A stretch of 24,540 nt of DNA from a virus. Location: positions 1 through 24,540 of the IMG/VR virus record IMGVR_UViG_3300022540_000025; one strand, given 5' to 3'. A program made the translations under genes and the position numbers. Below the pieces are notes generated by a model, which was given only the letters and a program-made list of their open reading frames with translations, made no database searches and was not told the origin of the DNA. The stretch's first letter is position 1, and the number at the start of each line of letters is the position of its first letter. Below are positions 5,947 to 13,983 of the stretch, in pieces.

Positions 5947-6354
5947 ATGAGTTTATTCACTGATATTAGGGATGTGGGTAGAATAGAAGAGGTAGAAGAG
6001 TTGTTCGATTCTCCGTCAGCAGCATCTGAAGCTACAGAACAATCAGCAGCAGAGCAAGGCGCCCGAATAACTGCTGCTGGCCAACAGATAGCGGCTAGTA
6101 GGGCGAGAGCTACGAGTATAGGAGCCGGAACTGCGGCAGAACGTAGGGGAGCAGCAGCCAGTTTTGCACAGACAGCCTTTGAATCGAAGATCAAGACCGG
6201 ACCAGTAATAGAATCAGTATCCGATCCTTCATCTAAGGTAAGTGTTAGAGAAGCTACTAGACTAGATTTTGCAGCAGTAACTGCCCCGCATCTACTCTTA
6301 GAAAGGAAAGGTACTACTGCTAGAGGCGAAGGTGTTGTGAGTAAGAAACGTTGA
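5947..6354 (+). CDS. 135-aa alanine-rich helical protein, unknown function
   Basis: Starts one base after the previous stop. The sequence is low complexity in the middle (Ala, Glu, Gln, Arg; about residues 24-80, e.g. SAAEQGARITAAGQQIAAS), predicting a long helix or coiled coil, followed by a more ordered segment (SKIKTGPVIESVSDPSSKVS, about 79-98) and a basic end, VSKKR. No catalytic motif, signal peptide or membrane segment is visible. Genes of this size between portal and scaffold in podoviruses are often minor head proteins, but I do not recognise the family. Its stop overlaps the next gene's TTG start (TTGA). Confidence 0.6.
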   Translation: MSLFTDIRDVGRIEEVEELFDSPSAASEATEQSAAEQGARITAAGQQIAASRARATSIGAGTAAERRGAAASFAQTAFESKIKTGPVIESVSDPSSKVSVREATRLDFAAVTAPHLLLERKGTTARGEGVVSKKR

Positions 6355-6629
6355 GTAGGAAGATATCCCTATCCTATGTATCTGATCTAAAGACAGATCA
6401 AGACAGAGAGAGGTTTAATCAAGAATATAACCACGCAAGAGGAGTACTATTAAAGTTACGTAAACTACTTATAGAAAAACAAGAGATCAGCAGAAGTAAC
6501 CAACTGAAAGCTGATAACTATGCACTACCAGCGTGGTCTGAGAAGCAAGCCGATAGTATTGGCTACCAAAGAGCACTTAATGAAGTAATAAAACATCTAC
6601 TACCTGACCCGGTAGGAGAGGAGAAATAA
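6351..6629 (+). CDS. 92-aa conserved small phage protein, TTG start
   Basis: The start is TTG, overlapping the upstream TGA (TTGA). An in-frame TAA three codons upstream (6342-6344) and no nearby in-frame ATG leave TTG as the only sensible start. The upstream ribosome-binding signal is poor, so translation probably relies on coupling to the preceding gene. The product is helical and charged: DLKTDQDRERFNQEYNHARG (about 11-30), LLKLRKLLIEKQEI, then ALPAWSEKQADSIGYQRALN (about 58-77) and a short acidic end. The pattern of a Trp-containing segment followed by GYQRAL resembles small hypothetical proteins I associate with podovirus head operons, but no function is established. It immediately precedes the scaffold gene. 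Confidence 0.65.
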   Translation: MSRKISLSYVSDLKTDQDRERFNQEYNHARGVLLKLRKLLIEKQEISRSNQLKADNYALPAWSEKQADSIGYQRALNEVIKHLLPDPVGEEK

Positions 6630-6632
6630 ATA

Positions 6633-7361
6633 ATGAGTAATGAAAGTACAGTTGACCAAACCGTATTTGGAAGTAAAGACAGTGCCCCGACCGGAGCAGA
6701 AGATAACCAGAACCAAGAAACTGTTACGCCTACCGTAGCTAACGAGTATATTGGAGAAGGTAAGAAGTACGCAACAGAAGCTATCGCATTGGCCGCAATT
6801 GCGCCAGCACAGAATCACATTAGTGGTCTGGAGCAGGAGTTAGTTAAGGCACGAGAAGCAAATGAAGCACTCTTAGCAGATTTACAGAAACGTGAGACTG
6901 CCGAAGAGATTATTTCTAGGATAAACCCCACACAACCAGAAGTAGCAACACCAGCACCAACAGTTGATATGGAGTCAGTTAGACAGGCCGCTGCGAAAGC
7001 AGCATCAGATGCACTAGCCGCAGATAGGCAAGTAACCCTGAAACTAGCTAACGAGAAGATGGTATCTGATAAGCTTAAAGCTGATTATGGAGATTCCATA
7101 GCCAGTGTATTGGCTGATAAGTCAGAAGAAGTAGGTATGAGTATTGATGAGTTAAAGGCTATGAGCCAGAGTAATCCAAAGGCTGTATTAGCTATGTTCG
7201 ATAAGTATCAATCAATCGACCTACCTTCTAAATCAAGTAACGGTAGTTCCGTTATATCTTCTCAGATCAAACCGGCTTCTAGTCGGCCTAAGATCATGGG
7301 AGCTAGTACTACAAGTGAGTTAAATGCTGAATGGCGGAGGTGTAAAGACTTAAACAACTAA
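6633..7361 (+). CDS. Capsid assembly scaffolding protein
   Basis: A 242-residue acidic, helical protein directly before the major capsid gene, the standard place for the scaffold that guides coat assembly and then leaves the prohead. The N-terminal 35 residues are disordered and Gln/Asn/Thr-rich. Then comes EYIGEGKKYATEAIALAAIA (about 38-57), a motif typical of podovirus scaffolds (GEGKKY plus an Ala-rich helix). A coiled coil follows (about 62-100, LEQELVKAREANEALLADLQ) and a second helical region around 115-190. The C-terminus has a short basic helix (SELNAEWRRCKDLNN), which in other scaffolds is the coat-binding element. Family sequence conservation is low, so position and composition carry much of the call. 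Confidence 0.85.
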   Translation: MSNESTVDQTVFGSKDSAPTGAEDNQNQETVTPTVANEYIGEGKKYATEAIALAAIAPAQNHISGLEQELVKAREANEALLADLQKRETAEEIISRINPTQPEVATPAPTVDMESVRQAAAKAASDALAADRQVTLKLANEKMVSDKLKADYGDSIASVLADKSEEVGMSIDELKAMSQSNPKAVLAMFDKYQSIDLPSKSSNGSSVISSQIKPASSRPKIMGASTTSELNAEWRRCKDLNN

Positions 7362-7362
7362 T

Positions 7363-7369
7363 AGGAGAG
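7363..7369 (+). promoter_or_regulatory. Strong ribosome binding site of the major capsid gene
   Basis: AGGAGAG lies 4 bases before the ATG at 7374 (AGGAG core spaced 6). This capsid gene has its own strong Shine-Dalgarno signal and a 12-base gap to the scaffold stop, whereas most genes in this block overlap and depend on coupling. This fits the need for hundreds of capsid copies per virion. Confidence 0.75.
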
Positions 7370-7373
7370 ACTT

Positions 7374-8321
7374 ATGTCTCAAAATACTGCGAATACTACA
7401 GCTTTTATCGAAGCTACTCAGTACTCGAACTTTATCTTGGAGAACCTACATGATGGGTTACTTCCTGATACTTTTACTCGTGATGTGAGTGATTTTGGTT
7501 CTGGTACTACTTTAAATATCAAAACTATGGGTACTGCGACTTTACAGGACGTTAGTGAAGAGCAAGCACTTACTTACAACTCTATCGATACTGATACAGT
7601 AACTCTGGCTATCACTGACTACATTGGCGATGCTTGGTCTATTACAGATGTATTGCGTATGGACGGGGCTCAGTTGGAGGCTCTACAGGCCTCTCGTGCT
7701 AAGGAAGCTACTCGGGCTATCCAGGAATATGTGGAAACACGCTTCTTGTCCGTGGCTAACTCGGCACAGACTGCATCGAACCAGAATCTTATCAATAACT
7801 TTGCCCACCGTAAGGTTGCTGAGGGTACTGGACAAATCGTTACTCTTAATGACTTCCGGGATATGAAGTTATCTTTCGATAAGGCTAACGTTCCTCAGAT
7901 GGGTCGTATCGCTATGGTTGATCCAGTCGTAGAGGCGACTCTTAACGGCCTGGTTGGTGCACAAGCATTTATTAATAACCCTATGTTTGGCGGCGTTGTT
8001 AACGAAGGTTTTGCACGGGACCATAAGTTCGTTGCTAATATCTTTGGTTGGGACATCTACACTACTAACTTCTTACCTGCTGTAGCAAGTGAGACTGTTG
8101 ATACTGTAACTGTAACTGGCGGAGTAGCTAACGTATTCATGAGTGTTATGGATGATCATACTAAGCCGATTATGCGCGCATGGCGTCAATCTCCTAAAGC
8201 AGAGGGTGCTCGTAACTCTAAGCTTAAGCGAGATGAGTTCGACGTTACAGCTCGTTTTGGATTAGGTACTCAGCGTACGGATACTTTGGGCATCTTACTT
8301 ACTGATGCTGCAACATACTAG
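7374..8321 (+). CDS. Major capsid protein (HK97 fold)
   Basis: A 315-residue protein after the scaffold, of typical podovirus coat length. Layout fits the HK97 fold: a short N-arm, a glycine-containing early segment DFGSGTTLNIKTMG (about 40-53) for the E-loop region, the long spine helix LEALQASRAKEATRAIQEYV (about 100-119), and a P/A-domain region with RIAMVDPVVEATLNG (about 178-192) and KFVANIFGWDIYTTNFLP (about 218-235). The C-terminus, DEFDVTARFGLGTQRTDTLG, is of the kind that ends many podovirus coat proteins. Codon choice differs sharply from neighbours: all 16 Ile codons are ATC or ATT and all 15 Arg codons are CGN, while neighbouring genes favour ATA and AGA. That indicates selection for high expression. 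Its own strong Shine-Dalgarno precedes it. Confidence 0.92.
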   Translation: MSQNTANTTAFIEATQYSNFILENLHDGLLPDTFTRDVSDFGSGTTLNIKTMGTATLQDVSEEQALTYNSIDTDTVTLAITDYIGDAWSITDVLRMDGAQLEALQASRAKEATRAIQEYVETRFLSVANSAQTASNQNLINNFAHRKVAEGTGQIVTLNDFRDMKLSFDKANVPQMGRIAMVDPVVEATLNGLVGAQAFINNPMFGGVVNEGFARDHKFVANIFGWDIYTTNFLPAVASETVDTVTVTGGVANVFMSVMDDHTKPIMRAWRQSPKAEGARNSKLKRDEFDVTARFGLGTQRTDTLGILLTDAATY

Positions 8322-8332
8322 GAGATTAAATA

Positions 8333-8830
8333 ATGAGTTTTGAAGATAGCGCGGGCCTAAATGTCCGCAATAGTTACGGTCCTCGTACTACCAATAATCG
8401 TTTTGGTGGTAAGTTACCGGGCGACGGAGCTATCAAGCAGTTGGAGTATGTGTTCTCATACGACGACCTGCCTGTAGCTTCTACGTCGGAGATGGAGCAT
8501 CTGATGGGCGACAACGCCCTGATCGTAGATGCATACATTGAGTCCATCGAAACCTTTGTTGGAGGCACTTCCTACGATATCGACGTTGTTGATACCGCTG
8601 GCGGGGCTATTGGTACAGGCGAAGATAAGTTATGGGATGCTTTGATTACTGCTGATCTTGCTGCTGGTGAGCGGAGCGTGAGCTCTACTCATGGCGGTAC
8701 TAATAGTGGTAATGCTTTAAATGTACAGTTAACCGAGCCTGCTCAATTGCAGGTTGTAGCTACAGGTACTTTCACCGCAGGTAAAGCCCGTATAGTTATC
8801 GACTATATCCCTAGTAAATACAATAGCTAG
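8333..8830 (+). CDS. Probable head decoration / second major head protein
   Basis: A 165-residue beta-rich protein right after the coat gene, with its own Shine-Dalgarno (AGGAG, eight bases before the ATG). Features: N-terminal extended arm rich in Asn, Arg and Gly (about 1-35), then alternating hydrophobic strands (ALIVDAYIESIETFVGGTSY, about 62-81; ALNVQLTEPAQLQVVATGTF, about 128-147; ARIVIDYIP near the end). The LTEPAQLQVVATGTFTAGKA segment is of a type common in phage head-decoration or stabilising proteins. Like the coat gene and unlike the rest of the window, it avoids ATA (1 of 10 Ile) and AGA/AGG (0 of 5 Arg), which suggests very high expression and hence many copies per virion. A decoration role is inferred from position, fold and codon use; no family name can be assigned. 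Confidence 0.7.
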   Translation: MSFEDSAGLNVRNSYGPRTTNNRFGGKLPGDGAIKQLEYVFSYDDLPVASTSEMEHLMGDNALIVDAYIESIETFVGGTSYDIDVVDTAGGAIGTGEDKLWDALITADLAAGERSVSSTHGGTNSGNALNVQLTEPAQLQVVATGTFTAGKARIVIDYIPSKYNS

Positions 8831-8838
8831 GAACTAAC

Positions 8839-8863
8839 AGGAGGGGCTTAGGTCCCTCCTTTA
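8839..8863 (+). terminator. Hairpin after the capsid/decoration genes, possible partial terminator
   Basis: AGGAGGG (8839-8845) pairs perfectly with CCCTCCT (8854-8860) around an eight-base loop, followed by only three Ts (8860-8862) and then AAGGAATATAA before the next ATG. It sits in one of the few real intergenic gaps of the block (8831-8873). In T7-like phages a terminator lies after the capsid gene and lowers expression of tail genes; this hairpin is in the equivalent place. The short U-tract makes it a weak intrinsic terminator at best; it may instead stabilise the 3' end of the capsid mRNA. Note that the 5' arm AGGAGGG itself looks like a Shine-Dalgarno sequence, locked in the stem. 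Confidence 0.5.
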
Positions 8864-8873
8864 AGGAATATAA

Positions 8874-9422
8874 ATGGCAACAGAACATAATATAATCACT
8901 GATCCAAATATACATGAGCCTAAAGGCGTTGCCGCAGCATCTGCTAATACTTTGTATATAGCCGACGGCGCAGGAAGCGGGTCATGGGTGAAAGCAAACC
9001 CTCATGGCGGTTGGTACTATGATAATATAGGAACAGGTACTACTTTTACCACACCAACAGCCTATATGTTAATGAATCTATCCTCTACAGCTACACATGT
9101 AGATGAGTTCACTCATAATAGCTCTGGACGTCTTACTTACACAGGAGCAGCTACTAGGCATGTACACATAGTCATAGATATATCCTTTAAGCATTCTACT
9201 GGATCAGGTCAGGATGTATTCTTTGTCTTGTACCATAACGGCGCAGAGCATGTAGGATCGAACGTAGTACAGACAGCTGATTCTGCTAATTATCAGCATG
9301 TAGCCTTTCATTGGGATGAGGTGGCTAATACAAATGACTACTGGGAGGTGTATTTAAAGACAGCTTCTGGTAATATAATCGTACACAAAGCTTATGTGTT
9401 TATTATGGGGATGCCTGATTAA
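8874..9422 (+). CDS. C1q/jelly-roll-like minor structural protein
   Basis: A 182-residue protein. The N-terminal segment ITDPNIHEPKGVAAASANTL (about 7-26) followed by YIADGAGSGSW is a recurrent head-fibre/structural-protein motif in podoviruses. The rest (about 60-182) reads as a C1q/TNF-like beta sandwich: RHVHIVIDISFKHSTGSGQD (about 95-114), VFFVLYHNGAEHVGSN, YQHVAFHWDEVANTNDYWEV and a final AYVFIMGMPD. Such domains trimerise and are used by phages as short spikes or head fibres. Translation is set by AAGGA eight bases before the ATG, downstream of the hairpin. Codon use is ordinary for this phage (8 of 11 Ile are ATA), unlike the two genes before it, so lower expression is likely. Its stop overlaps the tail-fibre start (TAATG). 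Confidence 0.7.
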   Translation: MATEHNIITDPNIHEPKGVAAASANTLYIADGAGSGSWVKANPHGGWYYDNIGTGTTFTTPTAYMLMNLSSTATHVDEFTHNSSGRLTYTGAATRHVHIVIDISFKHSTGSGQDVFFVLYHNGAEHVGSNVVQTADSANYQHVAFHWDEVANTNDYWEVYLKTASGNIIVHKAYVFIMGMPD

Positions 9423-10651
9423 TGGCTAAATTAACTCTCTCAGATCTAACATCACTAGCTAATGATACTAGTGCTGTAAATACTATCAACTCTAACAATG
9501 CTCTGATCGAAGCAGCTATGGATAGTGCGGTATTTAGATCAGGTGCTACGCCTAATGCGATGGCGGCTGATCTTGACTTAGGTACTAACTACCTACTTAA
9601 TGTTAAGTCTCCTAATAACGGAACTGACGGGGCCAGTAAGGCCTATGTAGACAGCCTGCTATCAGGCACTACAGATACAGGTTCAGCACAGCTAAGGGTA
9701 GATATAGCATCTACTGCTAGCACAGAGGGAGCAAGTCTCGTAGGGGTAGAGGACAGTGCAGCTAAGTTCACAGGTACTAATGTAGAGACAGTGCTAGCTG
9801 AGTTAGATACTAATCATGATACACTTATAACTGACCTAGCATCTACTGCTAATACTAAAGGTGCCTCTACGATAGGCATAGAGGACGCTGTATCGGCCTT
9901 TACTGGTACAGAGGTAGAAGCAGTTACTAACGAGATCTTCGACAAAGCGCGCTACATGCAGTATGCTTATCTAGTAGCGTCAGGAACAGATACCTACACA
10001 GCTACTCCTAGTCCAGTATTATCAGCATACACTACTGGAGAGACCTACAGGGTATCATTTGCTAATGCTAATACCTCAGTAGCTCCTACACTTAATATCA
10101 ATAGTCTAGGTGCTAAGACTGTTAAGATACAGAACGGAAGCGCTCTAGTAGCAGGTAATATAGAAGGAGAGCATTTACTGACGTACGACGGTACAGATAT
10201 GATACTATTGAATCCTGTAGACGTGGATGTAGGCCCTGCTATATCTACAGGGACCTGGACACCAACTATTCAAGACAATACACAGAGCGACGCTGAGGGA
10301 CAGACTTACAACTCTCAGGTCGGTTTTTACACCAAAATAGGTGACTCAGTTTTCTTTAAGGGATTCCTTGATATATCTAGCTTAGGAACACTGACTACGA
10401 GTGAGGAGGCTAAGATAGCTGGTCTGCCCTTTACTTCGTCCGCTACATCCGGCTCTCATTCTACAATCAATATAGGTAACGGATCAAATTTGTCTATAAC
10501 AGCTACAGAATCATTGACAGGAACACTACCTCCAAGCAGTTCTCGTATAACTATAAATACCTGGAGCCAGGCCACAGGTATAGCCAATACCTTATTAAGC
10601 GAAATCACTGCTAGTGGTACTTTAGTTTTTTCAGGATTTTATTCAGTATGA
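9422..10651 (+). CDS. Tail fibre protein (fibre 2), complete
   Basis: A 409-residue fibre. Residues 24-62 are paralogous to the truncated fibre at the left edge (SNNALIEAA, TPNAMAADLDLG). After DGASKAYVDSLLSG come two tandem shaft repeats (about 94-129 and 138-173; pattern ASTAxTxGASxxGxEDAxxxFTGTxVEAV), then a fibre domain beginning DTYTATPSPVLSAYTTGETY (190-209) with LNINSLGAKTVKIQ (224-237), and a C-terminal jelly roll opening GTWTPTIQ (277-284) with VGFYTKIGDSVFFKGFLDIS (300-319) and AGLPFTSS. The C-terminal type ends many podovirus fibres and is probably the tip. The start shares a base with the previous stop. The shared N-terminus with fibre 1 suggests both bind the same tail site or one another. 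Confidence 0.87.
   Translation: MAKLTLSDLTSLANDTSAVNTINSNNALIEAAMDSAVFRSGATPNAMAADLDLGTNYLLNVKSPNNGTDGASKAYVDSLLSGTTDTGSAQLRVDIASTASTEGASLVGVEDSAAKFTGTNVETVLAELDTNHDTLITDLASTANTKGASTIGIEDAVSAFTGTEVEAVTNEIFDKARYMQYAYLVASGTDTYTATPSPVLSAYTTGETYRVSFANANTSVAPTLNINSLGAKTVKIQNGSALVAGNIEGEHLLTYDGTDMILLNPVDVDVGPAISTGTWTPTIQDNTQSDAEGQTYNSQVGFYTKIGDSVFFKGFLDISSLGTLTTSEEAKIAGLPFTSSATSGSHSTINIGNGSNLSITATESLTGTLPPSSSRITINTWSQATGIANTLLSEITASGTLVFSGFYSV
9701..9940 (+). repeat. Imperfect tandem repeat in the fibre 2 shaft
   Basis: Two units, 9701-9808 and 9833-9940, offset by 132 bases. At protein level DIASTASTEGASLVGVEDSA is matched by DLASTANTKGASTIGIEDAV, and FTGTNVETV by FTGTEVEAV. At DNA level TAGCATCTACTGCTA is exactly repeated in both. 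This is a shaft motif known from many phage fibres; the units have diverged at most third positions, so the duplication is old. Confidence 0.7.
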
Positions 10652-10676
10652 TGACGTATTTGTTAGGAGCTAGAGT

Positions 10677-11429
10677 ATGAGCAAGCAAACATTACTAGAC
10701 ATGACTCAGGACATCCTATCAGCTATGACATCAGATCAAGTTAACTCTATTACGGACTCAGTGGAGAGCCAGCAAGTAGCTAGGATAGTTAAGAGAACAT
10801 ACGAAGATATTATCTCTATACGTAATGAGCCCGGACTTAAGAAGATGGTTAAGCTAACGTCCTTAGCTAGTACCTCTACCCCGTCCCATTTATTAATACC
10901 TGACAATGTGATGAGTATAGATGGATCAGTAGTTTGGTACGATATAGCAGGAGCTACTGATACTAAGAAGAATATGAGTCAGCTAGAGTTTAAGTATCCT
11001 CTAGACTTTATGATACTAGTTAATGCGAGAGATTCGAGTAAATCTACTATAGATATTATAACAGATATTGATGGGCGAGAGCTATTGATCCAGAATGATA
11101 AGGCCCCACAGTTCTGGACCTCTATCGACGATACCTATATCATACTAGATAGTTACGATAATGCAGTAGAGAGTACCATACAAGAGCATAAAACACAAGC
11201 AATAGTATACGAGGAGCCGCCCTGGGTACATGAAGATACCTTTATACCTAAGCTACATGCCAAGGAGTTTGCATATCTAAAAGCAGAATCAATGAGTGTA
11301 TCATTTAATGAAATAAGGCAGGCATCTAATCCGAAGGCTGAACAGCAGTCTCGTAGATTACGTACCTGGCTATCACAGCAAAAACATAGACAGAACAACA
11401 ACTTGAGGTATCCCGATTATGGTCGCTAG
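10677..11429 (+). CDS. Tail adaptor (T7 gp11-like tail tubular protein A)
   Basis: A 250-residue protein. In podoviruses this ring links the portal to the nozzle. The sequence shows an N-terminal helix set (LLDMTQDILSAMTSDQVNSI, about 5-24; ESQQVARIVKRTYEDIISI, about 30-48), a central beta part (FWTSIDDTYIILDSYDNAVE, about 142-161, where the DSYD motif is typical of this family) and a C-terminal helix ending in NPKAEQQSRRLRTWLSQQKH (about 220-239), a pattern recurrent in podovirus adaptor proteins. AGGAG lies eight bases before the ATG in a 25-base gap after the fibre gene. It directly precedes the nozzle module, as expected. Confidence 0.82.
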   Translation: MSKQTLLDMTQDILSAMTSDQVNSITDSVESQQVARIVKRTYEDIISIRNEPGLKKMVKLTSLASTSTPSHLLIPDNVMSIDGSVVWYDIAGATDTKKNMSQLEFKYPLDFMILVNARDSSKSTIDIITDIDGRELLIQNDKAPQFWTSIDDTYIILDSYDNAVESTIQEHKTQAIVYEEPPWVHEDTFIPKLHAKEFAYLKAESMSVSFNEIRQASNPKAEQQSRRLRTWLSQQKHRQNNNLRYPDYGR

Positions 11430-11709
11430 TACAAATACTTTAGTAATTCGATCTAAACCAACAACAGGCATGTATGAGATTATACGAACTACAGGAGGTC
11501 CTGTTAGTACAGACCTTGGTGGATTGTTTACTAGTACTACCCTTGCTCAGAGAGCTATTGACTTCTATAAAAATAATATTGAGAAGGAGATGGAGAAGCA
11601 AGATCTAGCCAAGGATAAAAAAGAGTACTTACTACGTGCTAAGATCAAGGAAGAGAAGAAGATAGCTAAGGCCTTGAAGGCAGAGAAACCTAAATCAGAG
11701 AAGAAATAA
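11419..11709 (+). CDS. 96-aa conserved tail-module protein with Lys-rich tail, function unknown
   Basis: The start overlaps the adaptor gene by 11 bases, with GAGG ten bases upstream. The N-terminal 60 residues look like a small folded domain (NTLVIRSKPTTGMYEIIRTT, about 6-25; VSTDLGGLFTSTTLAQRAID, about 29-48) resembling a small protein found between adaptor and nozzle genes in other podoviruses; that resemblance fixes the start upstream of the later Met at residue 18. The last 40 residues are a charged helix with many lysines (EKEMEKQDLAKDKKEYLLRA, ending EKPKSEKK). It ends directly against the nozzle ATG with no gap. Possibly a tail-assembly factor; no function is established. Confidence 0.65.
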   Translation: MVASTNTLVIRSKPTTGMYEIIRTTGGPVSTDLGGLFTSTTLAQRAIDFYKNNIEKEMEKQDLAKDKKEYLLRAKIKEEKKIAKALKAEKPKSEKK

Positions 11710-13983
11710 ATGGCTAAGAGCAGTACAAAGAAACTGTACAACTCCTTTGTTAGGGGGTTGCTTACAGAAGCAGGTCCTTTAACGTTTCCAGATGGAGCTG
11801 CTCTAGATCTAGATAATATGGTGCTGAATAGAGATGGGAGTCTCCAGCGCCGTTTAGGCATGGATTATGATAATAACTACGTAGTAAGCGCAGCTATAAG
11901 TAACGATGAATATGAAGATAGAGTAGTCTCTACAATAGAATGGTATGGAGCTGGGGGTGATAGTAGTAACCAATTTCTCTTGATTCAGATAGGTAGTAAG
12001 GTATATATCCATGATATGAGTGGCAGTACTCCTGCCGCTGTTACCCATACAGTAGATCTATCTATCCATCAGACTACGTACGCCGTAGATGTGGGTAGTA
12101 ATCCTGTAGCAGGAGTAGCTGGTAAAGGATATATGTTTATAGTAGCTAGGGACATAGAGCCCTTCTACATAACGTATAATGGAGGTACCTTTGAGGAGAC
12201 TCCTATTAATATGCAAACAAGAGACTTCCTCGGGGCTATAGATGACAGCCTTGGTATAACAGGACAGGACGTTTTACTAGATATCTGGCATGATTATAAT
12301 CTACGTAACCAAGGATGGAATCCGGTAAATGCGATAGATTATGCTATAGATGGGACTAATAACCCGCCTCCAACCAATTACTACCCTGACAACACTCAGG
12401 TATGGAGTTTAGCAAAGAATGCTACAGACGACTTTGATGTATCTAAGCTTATAAAGTTAGGGGTTACAATAATTAACTTTGGTAATACAAGAGCTCCTAA
12501 TGGTCATTATATACTAAGTGAATTCGATAAGGACAGATCTACAGCCTCTGGGGTAGTTGGAATAGAGAAGGATACTTACAAATGGAGACCTACAGCAGTA
12601 GGATTCTATGCTAGTAGGGTATTCTATAGCGGAGTAGAGCATGAAGCTATAGCCCATACAGGTCTTGGTATTAAACCAGCTACCAGCTTAAGTGGTAATA
12701 TATACTTTAGTCAGCTACTTACAGAGATAGCTCTGGCAGGTAACTGCTACCAGGCAGCAGATCCTACATCTGAGAATGTGAGTGATTTAGTAGATACAGA
12801 TGGAGGAGTAATAGTACTTCCTGAGTCTGGTAAGATACTGAAGATGATAGAGTTACAAGAGTATCTAGTAGTTATAGCAGAGAATGGTATATGGTCTATA
12901 CGTGGAGGGAATGATACTGGCTTCGTAGCTACCAGCTATATTGTAGAGAAGGTATCTACTATACGAGCATCTAATGCAAATACAATAGTACAAGTCGATA
13001 CTGATATCGTAGTATGGGCCCAGTCAGGTATATACTCTGTTACCTACAACCCCCAGACAGTTAAGGTAGATGTTGGTAATATAAGTGAGAAGACAGTACA
13101 GACTTACTACGATACGATACCAGAGATAGCTAAGAGATATGCTACAGGAGTATACGACCAGATAAGTAGGAAAATTAGGTGGTTGTATAATGATACCTCT
13201 AATTATGATGGTACGTCTTCTGTTAACTCCTATAATAGAGAGTTAATACTAGATACCTCCTTATCAGCATTCTCGCCCAATACAATATCAGATCTAGTTA
13301 CAGATTCTCCAAAGGTAATAGGATTCTATAATCCTCCTAACCTTACAAACACTACTGCTGATATTAATGTAGTAGCAGGAGCAGATACTGTAGAAGCTAG
13401 TGGGGTACAGGTAGTAGTATCTAAGACAGTTCCTACTAATGGAGATGCTGGTATTAAGTATATATTTAAGATACCAGGAACAACTACTTCTCAGTACACA
13501 TTCGGTAGATACCTGAATACTGGCTTTAAGGATTGGGTAACTGAGGATTCTACAGGAATTACTTATGATTCCTTCTTAATTACAGGACATGAACTAGTAG
13601 GAGATCCTACTGTAATTAAGCAAGCTCCTGCATTACTAACCTTTATGAACAGAACGGAGACACAATACATTGATGATGGTAGCGGAAACGCTGTATTTGA
13701 TTTACCAAGTGATTGCACAATCCAAGCTAGGTGGGAATGGAGCACCTCTTCAGGAACTGCTGCTAGATGGAGTAATCCTTTTAGCGCCTACAAACTCATA
13801 CAGCTACCTATGGCTTCGGGAGTACTTCCTGAAACAATAGACTTTGGTTATGATGTGGTTACTAATAAGAACGTAATAAGAGGCCGAGGTAGGTCTCTGT
13901 CCTTATACTTCTATTCTACAGAGGGTAAGGATATGCATATAATTGGCTGGAGTATTGACTTCACAGGAGCAACTAAGACGTAA
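11710..13983 (+). CDS. Tail nozzle (T7 gp12-like tail tubular protein B)
   Basis: A 757-residue, beta-rich protein following the adaptor, matching the size and place of T7 gp12, six copies of which form the tail nozzle that also binds the fibres. The N-terminus is highly typical of the family: SFVRGLLTEAGPLTFPDGAA (about 12-31) and NMVLNRDGSLQRRLGMDYD (about 36-54). The family's propeller-like centre is represented by segments such as ILKMIELQEYLVVIAENGIW (about 376-395) and NTIVQVDTDIVVWAQSGIYS (about 425-444), both recurrent in gp12-like proteins. Its stop overlaps the acetyltransferase start (TAATG). Confidence 0.88.
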   Translation: MAKSSTKKLYNSFVRGLLTEAGPLTFPDGAALDLDNMVLNRDGSLQRRLGMDYDNNYVVSAAISNDEYEDRVVSTIEWYGAGGDSSNQFLLIQIGSKVYIHDMSGSTPAAVTHTVDLSIHQTTYAVDVGSNPVAGVAGKGYMFIVARDIEPFYITYNGGTFEETPINMQTRDFLGAIDDSLGITGQDVLLDIWHDYNLRNQGWNPVNAIDYAIDGTNNPPPTNYYPDNTQVWSLAKNATDDFDVSKLIKLGVTIINFGNTRAPNGHYILSEFDKDRSTASGVVGIEKDTYKWRPTAVGFYASRVFYSGVEHEAIAHTGLGIKPATSLSGNIYFSQLLTEIALAGNCYQAADPTSENVSDLVDTDGGVIVLPESGKILKMIELQEYLVVIAENGIWSIRGGNDTGFVATSYIVEKVSTIRASNANTIVQVDTDIVVWAQSGIYSVTYNPQTVKVDVGNISEKTVQTYYDTIPEIAKRYATGVYDQISRKIRWLYNDTSNYDGTSSVNSYNRELILDTSLSAFSPNTISDLVTDSPKVIGFYNPPNLTNTTADINVVAGADTVEASGVQVVVSKTVPTNGDAGIKYIFKIPGTTTSQYTFGRYLNTGFKDWVTEDSTGITYDSFLITGHELVGDPTVIKQAPALLTFMNRTETQYIDDGSGNAVFDLPSDCTIQARWEWSTSSGTAARWSNPFSAYKLIQLPMASGVLPETIDFGYDVVTNKNVIRGRGRSLSLYFYSTEGKDMHIIGWSIDFTGATKT

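Follow-up and report, generated by a model that had tools for sequence, protein, structure and literature searches.

The described systems closest to the locus presented here are the capsid cement proteins of phages such as GP4 and BPP-1, together with the capsid genes of gene transfer agents. Namely, GP4 carries 540 copies of its capsid protein and 540 copies of its cement protein, the latter arranged as trimers at the quasi-three-fold axes (available text of PMC9698820), and the cement protein of BPP-1 forms dimers at the two-fold axes (available text of PMC3863775). In gene transfer agents, the major capsid gene exhibits strong codon adaptation, which is related there to copy number (available text of PMC9765227). 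Unlike the case described in that text, a second, unannotated gene shares the adaptation in our locus, and we use the match between the two genes to predict the role of its product.

This second gene encodes 165 amino acids and belongs to a family that includes RIO-1 gp47, ICP2 gp15 and VpV262 ORFL (gp56 according to a note in the RIO-1 record) and that corresponds to PHROG 18422 and 17024, all of which are annotated only as hypothetical or of unknown function. In the literature, we found no paper that assigns a function to the family, and a search of Pfam gave no match for the 165-aa protein. For one phage, PSA-HP1, virion proteomics has been published (available text of PMC5498523).

Gene arrangement around the capsid

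The window, by which we mean the whole 24,540-nucleotide stretch analysed, is a fragment whose proteins match PHROG terminase, portal-type head-tail adaptor, capsid and tail proteins. When compared with ICP2, MEP401, MEP402 and MW202697, its capsid is 56-60%, its portal 49-52% and its terL 51-57% identical. Moreover, the terminase-portal-scaffold-capsid order is the same in the window and in the named Zobellviridae, and the named relatives of the window phage in that family are ICP2, RIO-1, HP1, MEP401 and MEP402. Judged from these sequence comparisons, the phage is Zobellviridae-like and of a marine type. The features on which our argument turns are the following:

6633-7361, plus strand: scaffold-type gene, not codon-adapted, the upstream edge of the codon island (homologous to MEP401 and MEP402 proteins annotated as scaffold)
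7374-8321, plus strand: codon-adapted gene for the 315-aa major capsid protein, which has the HK97 fold (match to PHROG 267, major head protein, E 1.1e-39; model; codons)
8320-8325, plus strand: AGGAGA, ribosome-binding-like, overlapping the capsid stop codon (sequence read directly)
8333-8830, plus strand: codon-adapted gene of the 165-aa protein, a probable capsid cement (decoration) protein of the jelly-roll type (codons, synteny, predicted model)
8333-8407, plus strand: conserved N-terminal arm of that protein, residues 1-25, partly disordered in the model (invariant positions; pLDDT)
8839-8860, plus strand: RNA hairpin of 9 pairs with a loop of 4, the downstream edge of the island (z -3.29)
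8874-9422, plus strand: 182-aa gene without codon adaptation, the next one downstream (related to SIO1 gp29 and CRP-4 gp45)

The capsid model matches HK97-fold capsids with Z up to 19, and the 182-aa protein is 31% identical to SIO1 gp29 and 30% identical to CRP-4 gp45 by blastp (E 2e-22 and 4e-24, respectively). Since the AGGAGA of the 165-aa gene starts inside the capsid stop codon, translational coupling of the 165-aa gene to the capsid gene is suggested, and in the mechanism that we propose the gene would probably be co-transcribed with the capsid gene as well as coupled to it. A sigma-70 scan of positions 6000-11800 gave no plus-strand site before 9092 and none just upstream of the capsid gene; the 10 sites found in this interval, as compared with 12.2 expected from shuffles, represent no excess. 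A search of Rfam gave no match within the window.

The position of the 165-aa gene is a property of the family as a whole. Namely, the family gene lies directly 3' of the capsid gene in all 118 loci in which both genes were called, including all 67 of those that came from a capsid-based scan, where the family gene was not a selection criterion, and the commonest gap between the two is 11 nt (50 of 118 loci). Nine more loci were recovered by hand, and in these the family gene again follows the capsid gene. Ten loci had been without a capsid call, namely these nine, in which a longer antisense ORF had blocked it, and a tenth that is a fragment; in 8 loci, no gene followed the capsid gene. The family is absent from two cobaviruses, SIO1 and CRP-4, in which the post-capsid gene is related to the 182-aa gene of the window.

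Two observations on the loci themselves may be added. In nine loci, i.e. L026 (8987-10522, minus strand), L027, L057, L059, L063, L073, L113, L115 and L116, the capsid and cement genes are overlain by long antisense ORFs (about 390-545 aa); they are probably a by-product of the biased codons, and gene prediction programs could mistake them for genes. In addition, there is a short form of the family protein, 114-123 aa, with the N-terminal arm kept and a smaller body (L016, 6710-7072; L018, 10001-10348; L146, which is PA11, 9953-10309; L149, 8227-8598; L150, 5850-6194).

Codon use in the window and in diverged relatives

The preliminary description had singled out the capsid and 165-aa genes by their codon use, and all of its codon counts were exact on recount. 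By direct count, ATA makes up none of the 16 isoleucine codons of the capsid gene and 1 of the 10 of the 165-aa gene, and AGA or AGG none of their 15 and 5 arginine codons, respectively. Taken together, the pair uses ATA at 1 of 26 isoleucines, against 252 of 457 in the other 22 window genes (Fisher p 9e-8), and AGA or AGG at 0 of 20 arginines, against 210 of 355 (Fisher p 4e-8); for the 165-aa gene by itself the effect is weaker and still significant (p 0.007 for ATA and 0.012 for AGR). As had been claimed, ATA is frequent in terL (21/35), the portal gene (15/43), the nozzle-type gene (39/58) and the 1461-aa ejection gene (43/85). The island had also been described as having sharp edges, and this is true downstream, where the gene at 8874 has 8 ATA among 11 isoleucine codons; the upstream edge is softer for isoleucine, the scaffold gene being intermediate (3 ATA of 13), with an overall capsid-likeness of z 0.6.

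The same two genes stand out when no codons are preselected. In a codon deviation test of the 24 window genes, with a resampling null in which the amino acids are kept, the capsid gene is the most deviant (z 12.2) and the 165-aa gene comes second (z 3.8). Third is the gene m159 (z 3.5), which deviates in a direction that is not the capsid's (capsid-likeness z -2.2). In addition to the codons already mentioned, the bias of the pair extends to ATC, CGT, GGT and GCT, which are preferred, and to GGA, which is avoided; the asparagine codons differ within the pair, with AAT at 8 of 9 positions in the 165-aa gene and AAC at 13 of 21 in the capsid gene. The codon island in these two genes is thereby confirmed as real.

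Does the match hold outside the window? In a capsid-trained test, weights were derived from the capsid gene of each genome and the other genes were scored against an amino-acid-keeping null, using a ranking set of 36 genomes with less than 90% capsid identity (82 of the 118 loci were excluded, 73 as redundant and 9 as having too few other genes). By per-codon score, the family gene exceeds all others in capsid-likeness in 33 of the 36 genomes, where chance would give 2.6, and it comes first in all 15 genomes of the capsid-scan subset; when the genes are ranked by z instead, it is first in 26 and among the top two in 32 of the 36. Reciprocal training, from the family gene to the capsid, places the capsid first in 34 of 36, and in eight control gene pairs the number of first places ranged from 0 to 10, with the maximum for portal to capsid (10/36). 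The three genomes that miss first place are ICP2 (3rd of 46), L002 (2nd of 17) and L006 (5th of 17), and relatives of L006, taken before redundancy removal, fail as well (L004, 2nd of 11; L005, 4th of 5; L007, 12th of 16).

The direction of the bias is seen in a ribosomal test, for which weights were derived from 21 E. coli ribosomal versus 17 ordinary genes, without any training on the phages. With these weights, the capsid and family genes are the top two in 30 of the 36 genomes (0.4 by chance) and in all four extra isolates (PA11, VpV262, CVT22 and Vibrio 384E50-1). Translational selection on the two genes, as originally proposed, is thus supported both by the recurrence of the match in diverged genomes and by its direction toward ribosomal-gene codons. 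In particular, we propose that the capsid and the cement are needed in similar amounts and that, for this reason, both genes are held to the codons of ribosomal protein genes.

One could argue that the match stems from the base composition of the region or from the mere proximity of the capsid gene, given that the two genes are adjacent and that GC over them, 0.45-0.46 in 500-base windows, is at the high end of the profile. However, the scaffold gene, which lies on the other side of the capsid gene, comes first in 0 of 33 genomes in the capsid-trained test. Moreover, in the cobaviruses SIO1 and CRP-4, the gene that occupies the post-capsid position is outside the island, ranking 4/11 and 12/15 with capsid weights and 5/12 and 13/16 with ribosomal weights, so that the island tracks the gene and not the position. 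The likeness to E. coli ribosomal genes speaks against such an explanation as well, and we give it hardly any credence: as a cause of the island, adjacency and composition are rejected on the basis of the cobavirus control and the neighbour-pair controls.

As for tRNA genes, neither the window nor the nearest capsid relative, over its 46-kb contig, contains any, and four of eight related records do. The related contig L018 carries a tRNA-Arg(tct), and its capsid gene still has 0 AGR of 20; this tRNA gene lies together with a tRNA-Pro(tgg) at 7990-8148, between the portal and scaffold genes.

Predicted fold and probable role of the 165-aa protein

How codon likeness relates to amount was calibrated on described phages, with virion copy numbers for lambda, T4, T7, P22 and epsilon15. 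In T4, the sheath, tube, scaffold and vertex proteins rank first to fourth of 44, with Hoc 15th; among the 51 genes of lambda, J is first, D second and V third; in epsilon15, the portal is first and the gp10 staple fourth. By the same codon test, the BPP-1 cement is 1st of 32, the KHP30 cement 3rd of 22 and the single-strand-binding protein of T7 1st of 31. In other words, cements and non-cements such as the T7 single-strand-binding protein and lambda J both rank high, from which it follows that the score marks high expression. On a finer scale, with held-out capsid halves, the gene/capsid ratio has a median of 0.88 over the 36 genomes of the family (0.150 vs 0.235 in the window). The ratio is 0.38-1.03 for four cements of about 1:1. 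For T4 proteins below 1:1, with the portal excluded, it runs from 0.06 (Hoc) to 0.35, those that amount to 6-60% of capsid giving 0.26-0.35, and lambda J has a ratio of 0.81. Using codons as a proxy, we infer that the 165-aa protein is likely present at near-capsid copy number. It counts against our reading that the island does not include the scaffold gene, whose product would presumably be required in large amounts too.

Scaffolds rank 2nd to 5th in T4, P22, T7 and Syn5, yet the scaffold gene of the window (6633-7361) is not codon-adapted; perhaps its product is recycled. In Syn5, gp58 is 1st of 32 with a held-out ratio of 0.96, and gp55 is at background (-0.05). The scores of these two genes (L143, 42286-42795 and 41207-41677, respectively) bear on the assignment of the capsid-surface densities of this phage, which is unsettled (available text of PMC9207676).

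Codon likeness marks expression and not location, as the first places of the T7 single-strand-binding protein and lambda J illustrate. It could therefore be that the 165-aa protein is highly expressed without being a cement, i.e. that it is an assembly factor or an abundant late protein that is absent from the virion or minor in it. We consider this unlikely, as the gene is always the next one after the capsid gene, its codon ratio is at the capsid level, and the predicted fold matches cements.

Namely, the AF2 model of the protein, built from 33 sequences (pLDDT 80.7, falling below 50 at residues 1-17), contains a jelly-roll/Ig-like beta-sandwich at residues of about 22-165, and five of its best six matches among solved structures are phage cement proteins: KHP40 (Z 9.0, 109 residues aligned, 2.8 A), Pam1 (8.5), KHP30 (8.2), GP4 (8.0) and BPP-1 (7.4). 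The fifth match is a siphophage baseplate-tail chain (Z 7.7), the seventh a 129-residue chain of the Carin1 capsid entry (Z 6.4), whose role is not stated there, and other jelly-rolls have values of 6.3 and down; unrelated structures can come close to values of 6.4-9.0, and a common arrangement can also give them. Foldseek returned no solved structure at E <= 0.001 for this model, its best match being the Pam1 cement at 1.1e-3. A sequence profile searched against the PDB gave five matches up to E 10, all sub-threshold, of which three are cements (KHP30 0.055, Pam1 0.37 and GP4 0.69), and a single-sequence search of solved structures gave no match for the capsid or the 165-aa protein.

Like KHP30 gp15, the Pam1 cement, GP4 gp1 and BPP-1 Bbp16, the 165-aa protein is thus small and single-domain, with a predicted beta-sandwich (Z 7.4-9.0), and as in KHP30 and BPP-1, whose cements are also capsid-like in codons, its gene adjoins the capsid gene. 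There is no significant sequence similarity to the KHP30, Pam1, GP4 or BPP-1 cements (best E 0.055), and a shared fold alone does not prove cement function. That said, the original suggestion of a decoration protein gains support from the predicted fold. All things considered, the 165-aa gene probably encodes a jelly-roll capsid cement protein that is made in capsid-like amounts under translational selection, with copy number and virion location being the parts that we infer. Of the ten positions that are invariant or nearly so in the family, six are within residues 1-25, and the N-terminal arm is a possible capsid-docking segment; as we picture it, the arm would probably dock on the capsid and the beta-sandwich body would sit on the shell. 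By analogy with GP4, Pam1 and KHP30, the cement would most likely be arranged as trimers at the quasi-three-fold axes.

The hairpin and the history of the pair

The hairpin of the window starts eight nucleotides past the stop codon of the 165-aa gene. For the 60 nt that follow the family gene, the median folding z over the 36 genomes is -2.93, with z < -2 in 28 of 36, as compared with medians of -0.4 to +0.5 after the capsid, scaffold, portal, terL, tube A and tube B genes. These figures come from shuffle-based tests, on which we relied because a hairpin-boundary test with a crude energy cut-off was too noisy, owing to folded coding sequence. The stems differ in sequence among relatives. In SIO1 and CRP-4, the hairpin comes directly after the capsid gene (z -2.4 and -3.1), and in PA11 it comes after an additional small gene (z -3.5); this gene, of 88 aa, is annotated as head fiber and has somewhat capsid-like codons (z 2.6).

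The T7 Tphi terminator and the P22 stem-loop after gene 5, as annotated in their records, likewise bound the capsid block before the tail genes. Unlike in T7 and P22, the hairpin here comes after the cement gene, and a U tract is weak or absent in several relatives as well as in the window, whose hairpin tail, TTAAGGAA, is U-poor; a terminator scan of the window region did not have the hairpin among its matches. In our proposal, the block ends at the hairpin, which would probably lower the expression of the downstream tail genes or stabilise the capsid-cement mRNA.

The preliminary description had named recent import from a phage with different codon use as a finding that would overturn the selection argument, and there is indeed a sign of movement. 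Namely, the nearest relative of the pair is L043 (73% for the capsid and about 60% for the 165-aa protein), which differs from the nearest relatives of the terL, portal and tube genes, and of the seven genes compared none is less congruent than the 165-aa gene. By these sequence comparisons, the capsid and 165-aa genes have moved between phages as a pair. However, a recent joint import does not explain the codons: L043 itself exhibits this island when compared with the rest of its genome, the codons at conserved residues agree about as often as expected under saturation, and nearly all of the diverged genomes possess the island, which points toward ribosomal codons. We therefore reject import as the cause of the island and, in keeping with translational selection, regard it as very improbable. 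In L008-L011, the similarity to the window is 34% for the capsid, 54% for the 165-aa homologue and 54% for the portal, a mismatch which indicates that capsid and cement can have separate histories too.

One may go a step further and suppose, tentatively and with less confidence than doubt, that capsid and cement form one hairpin-bounded cassette, that its output is set by codons, by the overlap of stop codon and ribosome site and by the hairpin, that it is exchanged as a unit, and that ribosomal-codon likeness can find unannotated cements across tailed phages (for instance, Syn5 gp58 over gp55). Independently of this, the cement reading provides a likely and testable role for a family so far annotated as unknown (PHROG 18422 and 17024, ICP2 gp15 and RIO-1 gp47), whose gene follows the capsid in every Zobellviridae-like locus examined except for the two cobaviruses. 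Finally, our results suggest that a codon score used without any phage training may flag high-output virion proteins in uncultured phages.
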